A DNA stretch of 64,000 nt from Halorubellus sp. JP-L1 (GTDB taxonomy: Archaea; Halobacteriota; Halobacteria; Halobacteriales; Natrialbaceae), in contig NZ_JAAOIR010000002.1 of the NCBI RefSeq assembly GCF_011440375.1, positions 558,001-622,000 of the forward strand, given 5' to 3'. This document shows, piece by piece, positions 10,928 through 60,519 of this stretch; within the stretch, counting starts at the first letter, position 1, and every line of letters begins with the position of its first letter. Made by a program: the position numbers and the translations under genes. The notes beneath the pieces are model-generated. The model searched no databases. It was not told the DNA's origin and saw nothing but the letters and a program-made list of their open reading frames with translations.

Positions 10928-10932
10928 ACGAC

Positions 10933-10990
10933 CGTCGCAGAGACGAACGACGCCCGTCGCAGAGACGAACGACGCCCGTCGCAGAGACGA
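10933..10990. repeat. 22-bp tandem repeat (about 2.6 copies)
   Basis: Unit cgtcgcagagacgaacgacg plus cc, at 10933-10954 and 10955-10976, with a partial third copy to 10990. It sits between the kinase stop and the cold-shock gene; role unknown. Confidence 0.7.
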
Positions 10991-11177
10991 CCGTCGCCGA
11001 GAATCCGGTCTCGCCTCGTCGTCCGAGCGTCGAAGACGAGCTCGGTGCGGTGTGTCGGGGCCGGACTCGGTACCGGAGCGGTCGATACGAGCGTGCAGAG
11101 AGCGTGCGCTCGATCGCGCAACCATCGAAAAATCGGGATCGTCGTCTGTCGCGGTGAGCGACAGTCGTGACGTAGTA

Positions 11178-25910: not shown

Positions 25911-25995
25911 GCCGAGGTAGCCTAGCCCGGCCAAGGCGGTTGCTTCGAGAGCAACTGTCCGCAAGGACTCAGGAGTTCAAATCTCCTCCTCGGCG
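25911..25995 (+). tRNA. tRNA-Ser (anticodon CGA)
   Basis: 85 bases with acceptor stem GCCGAGG/CCTCGGC, D arm, a five-pair anticodon stem (GTTGC/GCAAC) around loop TTCGAGA giving anticodon CGA, a long class II variable arm (GTCC gcaa GGAC) and a T arm with GTTCAAATC. The G discriminator base and the long variable arm agree with serine. No intron and no encoded CCA. Confidence 0.95.
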
Positions 25996-25996
25996 C

Positions 25997-26047
25997 TTCT
26001 TCCAGCACATCGACGACGAACGTAGTGAGTCGTCCGTGCTGGAAGAA
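25997..26047. repeat. long two-part hairpin directly after tRNA-Ser
   Basis: Outer 12-bp perfect arms ttcttccagcac (25997-26008) and gtgctggaagaa (26036-26047), inner arms gacgac and gtcgtc, loop about 11 bases. It begins two bases past the tRNA discriminator. Confidence 0.75.
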
Positions 26048-26059
26048 CGCCAGCAGCGT

Positions 26060-26108
26060 GATTTGAACCAGGGAGCGGCTCGCTGCGACCGTGGTCCAAA
26101 TCTCCTCC
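26060..26108. repeat. second inverted repeat ending in a partial copy of the tRNA-Ser 3' end
   Basis: gatttgaacca at 26060-26070 pairs with tggtccaaatc at 26092-26102 with one mismatch. The right part gtccaaatctcctcc (26094-26108) matches 14 of 15 bases of the T-arm/acceptor of the tRNA at 25975-25989, 119 bases away: an att-like direct repeat. Confidence 0.6.
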
Positions 26109-26146
26109 CCAGGGCTCTTCGGAACGACGACGAGCGTCAGCGAGTC

Positions 26147-26238
26147 GTTCGTGGCGTCACGTGGTCGGTTCGTGGCGTCACGTGGTCGGTTCGTGGGGTA
26201 GCGTGAGCGGTTCGTGGGGTAGCGTGAGCGGTTCCTGG
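26147..26238. repeat. 21-bp tandem repeats
   Basis: Four adjacent units: two of gttcgtggcgtcacgtggtcg, then two of gttcgtggggtagcgtgagcg, then a partial unit gttcctgg. Identical pairs suggest recent duplication. No spacers, so not CRISPR. Confidence 0.85.
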
Positions 26239-26526
26239 AAGGTGGGGAGTGGACTGCCGGCGTGGTTGGTCGTCGAGGGCTGTGGAGTCGTCGGTCGTTG
26301 TTCGGGTGGTGGGTTGTGCTGGCTTGTTTGCGGTTCATCTACTGGTGGCCGATGCGTAGGTGTATCTACGGGCGCGTATGTGGAGTTCAGTTACCAGCTG
26401 AAACTGGCATCATATATAAAGATAGGCGCTGGTTTTAAATGACTGGAGGGATTACAATTAGTTACTGAAGCAGTCCGAGTCCAGTTACGCAACCACCGAC
26501 GATGCGGACCCGCCCTCCCCCATACG

Positions 26527-27543
26527 ATGTCAAGTTCTCGAACTCGAACGACCGACGAACGGACAGACGAACGCACCACCGACGAGCGGACGGCGCGCGA
26601 AGCCGAAGGCGAGCACGAACACGAACGAGAGCAGACCGAGAAGCAGACGTGCCCCGAGTGCGGCGGCCGTCTGCAGACCGACGAGGCTCACGGCGAGACC
26701 GTCTGCGCGGACTGTGGACTCGTCGTCGAGGAGGACGCCGTCGACCGCGGCCCCGAATGGCGTGCGTTCGACGCCAGCGAGAAGGACGAGAAGTCCCGCG
26801 TCGGCGCCCCGACGACCAACATGATGCACGACCAGGGGTTGTCGACGAACATCGGCTGGCAGAACAAGGACGCCTACGGCAACAGCCTCTCCTCGAACCA
26901 GCGTCAGAAGATGCAGCGCCTGCGCACCTGGAACGAGCGCTTTCGCACGCGCGACTCGAAGGAACGGAATCTCAAGCAGGCGCTGGGCGAGATCGACCGC
27001 ATGGCCAGCGCGCTCGGCCTGCCGGACAACGTCCGCGAGACCGCTAGCGTCATCTATCGCCGCGCGCTCGCCGAGGACCTGCTCCCCGGTCGGAGCATCG
27101 AGGGCGTCGCCACCGCGAGCCTCTACGCCGCCGCCCGGCAGGCCGGCACCCCCCGCAGCCTCGACGAAGTCGCCGCCGTGTCGCGCGTCGACGCGATGGA
27201 GTTCAAGCGCGCGTACCGGTACGTCGTCCGCGAGCTCAACCTCGAGGTAGAGCCCGCGGACCCCCTCCAGTACGTGCCGCGGTTCGCGAGCGAACTCGAC
27301 CTCAGCGACGAGGCCGAACGCACCGCTCGCGAACTCCTCTCGAGCGCGAAGCGCGAGGGCATCCACTCCGGGAAGTCCCCCGTCGGTCTCGCCGCCGCCG
27401 CGGTGTACGCCGCCAGCCTCCTCTCGAACGAGAAGGTCACGCAGAACGCGGTCAGCGAGGTGGCGAACGTCAGCGAGGTCACCATCCGCAACCGCTACAA
27501 GGAACTTCTGGAGAACGCCGACCAGGCGAACGCACTCGCCTGA
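26527..27543 (+). CDS. tfb: transcription initiation factor TFIIB (TFB), paralogue 1
   Basis: 338 residues. A 40-residue Arg/Glu/Thr-rich head is followed by a zinc ribbon (CPECGGR and [10 protein letters not shown]), B-reader-like region RVGAPTTNMMHDQGLSTNIG, and two cyclin folds with the recognition-helix sequences EGVATASLYAAARQAGTPRS and [16 protein letters not shown] recruits RNA polymerase to TBP-bound promoters. It differs from the second TFB in this window in the reader (STNIGWQNKDAYG against [13 protein letters not shown]) and in the first cyclin repeat, so promoter preference may differ. Preceded by three possible TATA boxes. Confidence 0.96.
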   Translation: MSSSRTRTTDERTDERTTDERTAREAEGEHEHEREQTEKQTCPECGGRLQTDEAHGETVCADCGLVVEEDAVDRGPEWRAFDASEKDEKSRVGAPTTNMMHDQGLSTNIGWQNKDAYGNSLSSNQRQKMQRLRTWNERFRTRDSKERNLKQALGEIDRMASALGLPDNVRETASVIYRRALAEDLLPGRSIEGVATASLYAAARQAGTPRSLDEVAAVSRVDAMEFKRAYRYVVRELNLEVEPADPLQYVPRFASELDLSDEAERTARELLSSAKREGIHSGKSPVGLAAAAVYAASLLSNEKVTQNAVSEVANVSEVTIRNRYKELLENADQANALA

Positions 27544-28303: not shown

Positions 28304-30223
28304 TTACTTGAACCGGAACGTCTCGAGGTTCTTCGGCGCGAACGTCCGCATGTTGAAGTCGTGGTAGAGCGACGACGACAGGTCCTGCACCGAGGATTCG
28401 TCGCCGTGGACGCACAGCACCTTCTCCGGTCGGGGATTCATCGTCCGGACGAAGTTCTCGAGGCCCTGGCGGTCGGCGTGCCCGGAGAACCCGTCGACGG
28501 TCTCGACGTGCATCTTCATCTTCATCGTGTTCCCGCGACTGCCGTCCTCGCTGATCGGGATCTCGTCCCAGCCGTTCTGGATGCGGCGCCCGAGCGTCCC
28601 CTGGGCCTGGTAGCCGACGAACGTCATCGTCGACTCGTCCTCGCTCCCGAGGTGGCGGAGCCAGGACATGATCGGGCCGCCCGTGACCATCCCGCTCGTG
28701 GAGAGGATGATGCACGGGCCGCCGTCGGCGACCTCCTGGCGTTCCTCCTCGCCGCCGTCGATGTGATTGAACTGGTCGGCGAGGAACGGGTTCTCGTCGT
28801 CGTGGAAGATGCGGTCGCGGAGGTCGTCCCGGAGGTACTCGGGGTACGTCGTGTGGATCGCGGTCGCTTCCCACATCATCCCGTCGAGGTGCACTGGCAT
28901 CTCGGGGATGTCGCCTTCGCGCATCGCCTCCTCGAGGACGAGCATGAGTTCCTGGCTGCGGCCGACCGCGAACGCGGGGATGAGGACTTTCCCCTCGCGC
29001 TCGTAGGTCTCGTTGATGACTTCCTTCAGGCGGCGCTCGGAGTCCTCCTGGTCGGTCTGGTAGTCGTTCCGTCCACCGTACGTGGATTCGAGGACGAGCG
29101 TCTCGACGCGCGGGAAGTCGTTCACCGCCCCGTTGAACAGGCGGGTGTCGTCGTAGTGGATGTCGCCGGAGAATGCGACGTTGTAGAGGCCGTCGCCGAT
29201 GTGGAAGTGCGTGACCGCGCTCCCGAGGATGTGCCCGGCGTTGTGGAACGTCAGCTTCACGTCCGGCGCGATGTCCGTGACGTCACCGTACTCGAGGGGG
29301 ATGCAGTGCTTGATCGCTTCGCGGACCTGCTCGGAGTCGTACGGCGGCGTACGACCCTCCTTGGCTGCGACGTCGAGGTAGTCGAGCGTCAACAGCCCCA
29401 TGAGGTCCCGCGTCGGCTCGGTACAGTAGATCGGGCCGTCGTACCCGTACTTGAACAGGAGCGGGATGAGTGCGGAGTGGTCGAGGTGCGCGTGCGTGAG
29501 GACGACCGCGTCGAGCGAGTTCGCGCCCGACCCGAGCGCCTCGGGAACCTGGAGGTACGGGACTTCGCCCTCTGCGCCGGGTTTGTCGCCGCAGTCGATG
29601 AGGATGCGGGTCTCGGGCGTCGACAGGATGAAGCTCGCACGACCGACTTCGCGACAGCAGCCCAGCGTCGTGATGCGCACCCACTCGTCGTCCTGCATCT
29701 CCTCGCGGTGGATCTGGCGGCCGACCTTCTCGAGGATGTCGCGGCGGTCGTCGCGCTCCTGCTTGAGGAAGCTCCGGACGTTCGAGACGGTCGAGGACTC
29801 GATCGGCGGCGTGCGGACGACTTCGGGCGTCCACCCGACTTTCTTCGTGATCTCGCGGAGCGTGGAGCCGTGGCGGCCGATGACCATCCCGGGCTTCTGG
29901 GCTTCGATGACGACCTCGCCGGTGTCGGCGTGGAAGTCGAGGTCGGTGACGCCCGCGTCCTCGGGGATGACGTCCATGATCTGCTCCCGGGCTTCGTCGG
30001 GGTGACTGAGGACGTCCGGGTCGGGGCGGACGGTGATGCGCTTGCGGAGCTTGGAGGCGAGTTGCCGGATGAGGTCGCCTTGCTGGGCGAACTTCTTCGG
30101 GTCGCGCGTGTACACGACCAGTTCCGGGCCCTCGTACTTCACGTCGGAGACGGTGATGTCGTCGGGTATCTCGCTCGTGATCTTTGCCTTCAGGTCGTCG
30201 AGTTGGCGGTCTACTGAACTCAT
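28304..30223 (-). CDS. fttA: transcription termination factor / beta-CASP RNase FttA (aCPSF1)
   Basis: 639 residues: two N-terminal KH domains (the second with GMVIGRHGSTLREITKK), a metallo-beta-lactamase core with THAHLDHS near residue 243, the beta-CASP insertion with YGGRNDYQTD and LILSTSGMVTGGP-type block (PCIILSTSGMVTGGPIM), and the C-terminal GFSGHADRQGL and VCVHGDES. This archaeal CPSF73 homologue cuts nascent RNA at U-rich sites and ends transcription. Length is as expected. The 278 bases upstream, shared with a divergent gene, hold no other gene. Confidence 0.96.
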   Translation of the reverse strand: MSSVDRQLDDLKAKITSEIPDDITVSDVKYEGPELVVYTRDPKKFAQQGDLIRQLASKLRKRITVRPDPDVLSHPDEAREQIMDVIPEDAGVTDLDFHADTGEVVIEAQKPGMVIGRHGSTLREITKKVGWTPEVVRTPPIESSTVSNVRSFLKQERDDRRDILEKVGRQIHREEMQDDEWVRITTLGCCREVGRASFILSTPETRILIDCGDKPGAEGEVPYLQVPEALGSGANSLDAVVLTHAHLDHSALIPLLFKYGYDGPIYCTEPTRDLMGLLTLDYLDVAAKEGRTPPYDSEQVREAIKHCIPLEYGDVTDIAPDVKLTFHNAGHILGSAVTHFHIGDGLYNVAFSGDIHYDDTRLFNGAVNDFPRVETLVLESTYGGRNDYQTDQEDSERRLKEVINETYEREGKVLIPAFAVGRSQELMLVLEEAMREGDIPEMPVHLDGMMWEATAIHTTYPEYLRDDLRDRIFHDDENPFLADQFNHIDGGEEERQEVADGGPCIILSTSGMVTGGPIMSWLRHLGSEDESTMTFVGYQAQGTLGRRIQNGWDEIPISEDGSRGNTMKMKMHVETVDGFSGHADRQGLENFVRTMNPRPEKVLCVHGDESSVQDLSSSLYHDFNMRTFAPKNLETFRFK

Positions 30224-45196: not shown

Positions 45197-45314
45197 GACG
45201 CCGACTCCGAGCGCCGACGGCTTCACGATTCGGGCCCGATTCGTGGCTCGATATCGACCGCTAGCGAACTCCGGATCCCCCGCCACCGCCAGTCGCACTC
45301 GCCAGATGACACCC

Positions 45315-45490
45315 CGCGAACGCACAGAATGCCTCGGTGGTCACATGCGTTCGACGGCGAGCAACCGCGAACGCACAGAAAGCCCCGGTGGTCGCATGCA
45401 TTCGACGGCGAGCAACCGCGAACGCACAGAAAGCCCCGGTGGTCGCATGCATTCGACGGCGAGCAACCGCGAACGCACAGAAAGCCCCGG
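45315..45490. repeat. 51-bp tandem repeat, 3.4 copies
   Basis: Units at 45315, 45366, 45417 and a 23-base partial at 45468. The unit starts cgcgaacgcacagaaagccc and ends cggcgagcaac. The second and third copies are identical, the first has about five changes. No spacer sequences. Confidence 0.95.
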
Positions 45491-59593: not shown

Positions 59594-60519
59594 CGCTCCG
59601 GGTCCTGGCGGCGGTCGCGCTCGCGGTGGCGTTGCTCGCGGTCGCCGCGCCCGGCATCGAGGCGGCGCGCGAGCGTGCGACCGTCGAGGCGGTCTCGGGG
59701 GACGCCGACCGACTGGCGCTGGCGGTCGAGCACGTCTCGGGGGCGCCGCGGGGGACGCGGCGCGTCGTCGCCGTCGACGTTCCGGAGGCCGCGGTCGGAA
59801 CGGCTGGCGTCGCCGAGGTCCGGGTGTCGGGGCGCACGGTCCGGTACCGGCTCGCGAGCGGTCGCCGCGGCGGTCGCGCGCTGCCCGCATCCGTCAGCGC
59901 GCCGGACGGCCCGCTCGTACTGGAGACGTCGGGCATGCACCGGATCGCGGTGTCGAAGACGGCGTGTGGCGTGGTGGTCGCGCGCGCCACCGGGGACGCC
60001 GAGCGTTTATCGGGGGAGGCGCGGCCACCGTCGGCATGTTCGACCGACGCGACGACTGTGCGTGCACGACGAGCATCGAGGGCGGCGCGCTCTGCGTCGA
60101 CGGAAGCGACTGCGATGGTGACGCGCTCTGCGTCGACGGAAGCGACTGCGATGGTGACGGCGACCTCGTCGCGAACGAGGGCTGTCGCGCGACCGTCGTC
60201 GCCGCGTGCCGCGACCGCACCGTGGACGCCGTCAGGGTGCGCGCGCGTGGGTTCGAGCGTCGGTACGGCGACCGCGCGGTCGCGCTGTTCGTCGCTGCCG
60301 GTCGATTCCTCGCTCGACTCGGCGACGCCTCTGACCCGCTCGCGGAGCGCGTCCGTCGCGACCCGCTCGGGGCGGCCGAGAGCGCTCGCGCTCGCGCTCC
60401 GCCGGTCTCGGAGTGGGCGGCCGAATCCGGGCTCCTCGTTGCGGCCGAAGGCATCGCCGGTTACGACGCGCTCGCCGTCCACGAGGGCCCCGTCGTCGCA
60501 CCGGTCCGCGTCCGCCTGA
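59590..60519 (+). CDS. single-TM accessory protein (DUF7311-like); 3' end uncertain
   Basis: The first 140 or so residues look real: an N-terminal signal/TM (TLRVLAAVALAVALLAVAAP), then beta-rich ATVEAVSGDADRLALAVEHV and TRRVVAVDVPEAAVGTAGVA. Beyond about position 60035 the frame is Arg/Ser-rich and overlaps the ATPase gene, so the product probably ended near there in the ancestor. No stop exists in any of the three frames from 59594 to 60118; the first in this frame is at 60517. The given end is that stop, not a claim that the tail is functional. Confidence 0.5.
   Translation: MTLRVLAAVALAVALLAVAAPGIEAARERATVEAVSGDADRLALAVEHVSGAPRGTRRVVAVDVPEAAVGTAGVAEVRVSGRTVRYRLASGRRGGRALPASVSAPDGPLVLETSGMHRIAVSKTACGVVVARATGDAERLSGEARPPSACSTDATTVRARRASRAARSASTEATAMVTRSASTEATAMVTATSSRTRAVARPSSPRAATAPWTPSGCARVGSSVGTATARSRCSSLPVDSSLDSATPLTRSRSASVATRSGRPRALALALRRSRSGRPNPGSSLRPKASPVTTRSPSTRAPSSHRSASA

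Follow-up and report, generated by a model that had tools for sequence, protein, structure and literature searches.

The window analyzed here, a stretch of 64,000 nucleotides from Halorubellus sp. JP-L1, contains a tRNA-Ser(CGA) gene (Rfam tRNA match of 54 bits) that is followed downstream by a set of nested repeats in the order X - hairpin 1 - X' - core - X. X is the host tRNA's own T-loop and acceptor end, and X' is an inverted copy of X. The features of the locus are collected in the following table.

Features at and downstream of the tRNA-Ser(CGA) gene, in window coordinates
Feature	Coordinates	Strand	Basis
tRNA-Ser(CGA), anchor of the array	25911..25996	+	ARAGORN; Rfam RF00005
X: from T loop to end of acceptor; left arm of the 94-nt palindrome	25975..25996	+	repeat comparison; DNA fold
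Hairpin 1: stem TTCTTCCAGCAC/GTGCTGGAAGAA, inner palindrome GACGAC..GTCGTC	25997..26047	+	repeats; DNA fold
X': X in inverted orientation, in part degenerate, with a perfect GATTTGAAC	26048..26068	-	fold of 25975-26068; minus-strand self-match
Type A core (CAGGGAGC - tip - GCGACCGTG), conserved across Halobacteriales	26069..26093	+	core patterns
Second X: tRNA 3' end repeated directly (83% over 23 nt)	26094..26116	+	repeat comparison
Degenerate hairpin 1 of a would-be next unit	26117..26153	+	z of 0.12 for the fold of 26115-26160; D3-D5, direct repeats shared with hairpin 1
21-bp tandem repeat, a local minisatellite	26147..26238	+	tandem-repeat detection; genome self-comparison

A sequence-only reading of this DNA had pointed to a duplication of the tRNA 3' end 119 bases downstream, with inverted repeats inside it, and both are present. 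The segment 25975-25997 recurs directly at 26094-26116, with 14 of the first 15 nucleotides identical, and 25997-26008 pairs with 26036-26047 at all 12 positions. As DNA, 25997-26047 folds with a z of -5.2, equaled by none of 200 shuffled sequences. That reading overlooked a 94-nt palindrome at 25975-26068, which gives a z of -6.1 (again 0 of 200 shuffles equally good) and which, by its extent, makes the 3' end of the tRNA-Ser(CGA) gene itself one of the two arms. A further DNA fold lies at 26058-26104 (z -3.1; 2 of 200 shuffles equally good), and the RNA fold of 25997-26260 has a z of -3.2.

The 21-bp tandem repeats (4.4 copies, 91%) and the A+T-rich zone (about 26396-26460) that the same reading described beyond the duplication were also recovered, and both look ordinary. 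No other copy of the 21-bp repeat occurs among the own-genome matches of a 330-bp query. The repeat apparently grew out of hairpin 1 of a second unit that would have decayed in the window; the fold of that presumed remnant, at 26115-26160, is no better than chance. Other tandem repeats in the window have periods of 51 bp (45314-45490), 36 bp (60086-60159) and 22 bp (10928-10998). The A+T-rich stretch directly precedes a TFB (TFIIB) gene (26527-27543) and looks like its promoter region. The archaeal termination factor FttA/aCPSF1 (Pfam KH_TffA, Beta-Casp and RMMBL) is also encoded near the tRNA-Ser(CGA) and TFB genes, at 28304-30223 on the minus strand.

Rather than a lone scar, the locus is a single unit from a large family of hairpin repeats found behind many haloarchaeal tRNA genes. 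By BLAST, the 330-bp query matches eight places in its own genome, beside tRNA-Ser, Leu(CAA), Lys(CTT), Leu(TAG), Gln and Asp genes (ARAGORN). A search for similar hairpins behind other tRNA genes, as the sequence-only reading had proposed, found the same plan behind many of them, each built with its own 3' end. For this the downstream DNA of all 43 tRNAs found by Rfam in Halorubellus sp. JP-L1 was inspected, and an own-end copy was defined as the last 20 nt of the tRNA, with at most 5 edits, within 450 nt downstream. Among the 42 tRNAs with a recognized T loop, 25 are followed by an own-end copy, 20 by an inverted T loop and 19 by both; the corresponding numbers in Halorubellus salinus GX3 are 20, 20 and 16 of 41. 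Copies per tRNA in JP-L1 amount to 0.79 for the tRNA's own end, versus 0.18 for the ends of other tRNAs and 0.017 in shuffled flanks, so that own-end copies are above chance genome-wide. Some tRNAs in this genome have two or three units in tandem, and 17 of the 42 have no own-end copy by the same definition; with so many tRNAs lacking a unit, it is dispensable at any single one. A total of 244 unique units were parsed behind 38 isoacceptor classes (7 of 272 tRNA entries were dropped because no T loop was recognized), and near-identical units stand in tandem at three loci (L106, L179 and L093). Another hairpin type, AGTCCC..GGGACTCC followed by the tRNA end, occurs in JP-L1 behind tRNA-Ala(CGC), Arg(CCG), Arg(CCT) and Arg(GCG) (L047, L056, L063 and L077), where the T-stem/acceptor part alone is copied, without the T loop.

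The core is found in most sampled genera of Halobacteriales. A strict pattern, AGGGAGC-N-GACCGTGGTTC, matches 109 of 293 genomes of the order and 52 of 87 genera, and a relaxed pattern matches 226 genomes and 75 genera; reversed versions of both, searched as a control in the same 293 genomes, gave no match. A pattern that ignores the core, GGATTTGAA-N-TTCAAATCC, was searched in 294 genomes of the phylum and occurs in 40 of 53 from Halobacteriales and in none of 241 from outside the order. Carriers include Halorubrum, Natrialba, Natrinema, Halobellus, Halorubellus, Haloferax elongans and Actinarchaeum. In the extracted loci, 120 of 139 strict core matches have a tRNA gene on the same strand no more than 700 bp upstream. 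The other 19 do not, and those listed among them include five arrays whose extracted stretch has no tRNA (L117, L174, L182, L184 and L186) and nine viral stretches. These nine, the only strict-core matches in viral contigs, are all unrelated and have no T copies, and carriage by viruses was accordingly set aside; the core-blind pattern matches 109 viral stretches, in a set so large that chance matches are expected. The sequence-only reading had reasoned that conservation of the structure in distant genera would favor a regulatory or processing role over a scar. The family does extend to distant genera, though its sequence turns over fast.

Within the units the core is strictly oriented. It points the same way in all 186 typed units (58 of the 244 are untyped), and core inversion, the expectation of simple inverted-repeat recombination, is thus seen in none of them; one untyped array (L304) can be read from two convergent tRNAs. 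The arms of the hairpins covary. Inside CAGRGA..GAYYG, among 130 distinct type A strings, the first inner pair is G-C in 103 and A-T in 17, and the second is C-G in 55, T-A in 45 and G-C in 22. Between the hairpin 1 stems of the two Halorubellus species, 10 pairs have changed on both sides, 1 on one side and 37 not at all, while 32 are not comparable; for the window's own hairpin 1 against H. salinus the counts are 3, 1 and 8. In the X copies (n = 163), 20 of 27 insertions fall at four positions in the middle of the T loop while X' mostly retains the tRNA form of that loop, which produces a bulge in the right arm. Such insertions could mark a crossover point, or could reflect avoidance of a perfect T loop. 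Inspection of the core by eye for a kink-turn or bulge-helix-bulge motif gave no match.

Comparison of the locus in relatives, also suggested by the sequence-only reading, covered 30 loci of the family at tRNA-Ser(CGA), where unit number and core type vary between species. The parser recorded units at 18 of the 30, with JP-L1 and H. salinus entered under other locus ids and one locus (L250) scored 0 although its units are visible by eye. In H. salinus, one extra unit lies between the tRNA and a core that matches the window's core A. Presence and absence are precise behind tRNA-Leu(CAA) of Halorubrum, where 50 loci, from 50 of 52 genomes, include 23 with a core A unit, 19 without it, 6 with a fused form and 2 that are unreadable; the differences may represent gain or loss. 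In the absent state a short acceptor-only unit comes right after the tRNA, and in the fused state hairpin 1 is joined to that short unit, which is present at all 48 readable loci; a similar sequence is also found in JP-L1. At three Halorubrum loci of the same region (L438, L443 and L446), the DNA downstream contains another tRNA-Leu copy, a defective one whose variable arm has a core-like hairpin inserted.

Across 146 type A entries, which were assigned by pattern and so let in a few other cores, the core distance is 0.218 at the same tRNA in other genomes versus 0.368 at other tRNAs in the same genome, and in a label-shuffle test 499 of 500 shuffles gave a distance no higher than the same-genome one. 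Intragenomic spread was thus looked for and not found. With cores closer at the same tRNA across genomes, nothing points to recent copy-and-paste; core inheritance is mainly vertical, the arrays being inherited with their tRNA and remodeled there. The location of most strict core matches behind tRNAs, together with the lack of greater likeness among cores of one genome, also sets the family apart from dispersed mobile repeats of the MITE, PATE or REP kind, which occupy many unrelated sites and are alike within a genome.

In one account, unlikely but deserving serious consideration, the array is a structured RNA trailer that is co-transcribed with the tRNA, with X'-core-X imitating a minihelix of acceptor and T arm and directing 3' processing, termination or decay. 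The arrays do lie always downstream, on the sense strand and in a single orientation (a fixed orientation behind a transcribed gene being compatible with RNA too), and the constancy of the short acceptor-only unit in Halorubrum and the RNA fold downstream of tRNA-Ser(CGA) are in keeping with it. A sense RNA selected to fold should show more G.T than A.C mismatches on the sense strand, as tRNA stems do; the acceptor and T stems at the same loci have a G.T:A.C ratio of 40:2 (24:0 and 16:2). Hairpin 1 shows no such preference (26:34; Fisher p 1.5e-8 against the tRNA stems), nor do the inner core pairs (9:6; p 0.003) or the X':X arms (77:69, with events counted once per isoacceptor). An excess in T/anti-T 9-mers (39:15, p 0.0015) was seen before correction for relatedness and was not upheld in that per-isoacceptor count, and another zip method gave 81:120 for hairpin 1, from which it is evident that such counts depend on method. 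The core tips do lean to a sense-strand fold and against a DNA reading, at 8:1 for core A and 9:3 for other cores. In Rfam only the tRNA reaches threshold, and a permissive search adds chance-level matches only; close relatives within Halorubrum, moreover, freely lack units. On our reading, complementarity is mainly kept by a process at the DNA level, while an RNA role of the core is possible.

Template switching driven by the palindromes, with unequal recombination at tRNA ends, might make and homogenize copies that are neutral by-products without function. The joint change of hairpin arms, the near-identical tandem units and the exact presence, absence and fusion of units in Halorubrum all agree with this, but free template switching should symmetrize or invert the core, whereas the asymmetric CAGGGA..GACCG is held in one orientation in 75 of 87 genera, and the family is limited to one order; we regard this account as improbable. 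The sequence-only reading, for its part, had likened the locus to the scar, or a minimal element, of a past integration. The tRNA 3' end is indeed repeated directly around a small unit, as in an att duplication, and in Halorubrum the presence or absence of a unit between two X copies is exact, so that the notion of a minimal unit of insertion and deletion has held up. A single integration scar at tRNA-Ser(CGA) has not, in view of the inverted tRNA-end copy and the conserved core, both foreign to an att duplication, and of units behind many tRNAs, each with its own end, in most sampled haloarchaeal genera. The search for an integrase that the same reading suggested gave none near this tRNA: JP-L1 has nine Phage_integrase matches, and on the contig of tRNA-Ser(CGA) the closest is more than 450 kb away. 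Haloarchaeal integrases do use such tRNAs, and a Phage_integrase gene adjoins four of the five arrays that lack a tRNA (L117, L174, L184 and L186). There, the insertion point of integrative elements seems to have been between tRNA and array, upstream of the array, which was left behind. The scar or attachment-site remnant is thus largely refuted and very unlikely indeed. Use of the tRNA itself by integrase elements likewise weakens the idea that the arrays are decoy attachment sites, and a casposon-like insertion, with target-site duplication at the tRNA end, was rejected because the insert has no terminal inverted repeats of its own.

The best reading is that the arrays are ancient, vertically inherited, hairpin-forming DNA repeats anchored on tRNA ends. 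In its full form, in which our belief and doubt are about equally balanced, this is a haloarchaea-specific family of palindromic arrays whose hairpins act chiefly as DNA, whose units are gained and lost via X copies and whose core is a recognition structure for a putative protein. X comprises about 20 nt at the end of the host tRNA, from the T loop through the 3' strands of T stem and acceptor to the discriminator, and an array consists of zero to three units directly behind the tRNA in constant orientation. The hairpins may form as cruciforms or as single-strand hairpins, units may be added or removed when X copies recombine or when the template is switched between them, and the invariant asymmetric core would be recognized by a putative haloarchaeal protein. 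A bolder version, which we consider distinctly improbable, is strand-specific recombination anchored on tRNAs: the folded X'-core-X hairpin would be an attC-like single-strand site with crossover in the universal T loop, the one-base mid-T-loop insertions would be junction marks, and one hypothetical haloarchaeal recombinase would add, delete and exchange cassettes devoid of genes behind almost all tRNAs.

The open-access literature yielded nothing on such tRNA-end arrays, and the part of a paper treating trailers that was consulted (PMC7714728) does not mention them; the family is apparently undescribed, a provisional statement in that the search covered open-access sources and subscription literature lay outside it. 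tRNA genes are well studied, yet in most sampled haloarchaeal genera they are followed by arrays with copies of the host tRNA's own end, alternately direct and inverted. If the description holds, the arrays open the question of how tRNA-adjacent DNA is copied and stays in step with the gene, and may affect both the integration sites of mobile elements and the annotation of partial tRNA copies; lab-accessible archaea are available for testing.

Several known systems share features with the arrays. Behind the tyrT gene of E. coli, the rtT region consists of 178-bp tandem repeats, each with about 19 bp of the tRNA 3' end. The haloarchaeal arrays likewise are tandem repeats that contain the upstream tRNA 3' end; tyrT/rtT, however, is bacterial, concerns a single tRNA and is not known to have an inverted X' or a core common to many tRNAs. 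An archaeal palindrome behind tRNA genes is known from M. kandleri, where it follows about half of them and, according to its authors, is found only there; in the portion of that report consulted it is a single short palindrome, without tRNA-end copies and without arrays (PMC5217627). The PATEs and other small mobile repeats of Haloquadratum walsbyi are also short, non-coding, palindromic haloarchaeal elements, but they are dispersed and related to IS605 ends, with no tie to tRNA genes described in the sections of the source that were seen (PMC3119063). Elements moved by tRNA-targeting archaeal tyrosine recombinases have the tRNA 3' end duplicated at their borders; as presented in the consulted part of that work, they differ in having an integrase and one direct att repeat, without an inverted copy or a shared core (PMC8371274). 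Integron attC sites, the subject of PMC2727003 among others, resemble the units in that they form imperfect hairpins that covary and differ in length, with some unpaired bases conserved and the strand fixed, and in that units are gained and lost. The tRNA-end units do combine a covarying folded hairpin, a variable tip and a conserved strand. In contrast to these units, attC sites are not built from tRNA; no integrase is associated with the tRNA-end unit here, and no gene cassettes were seen.
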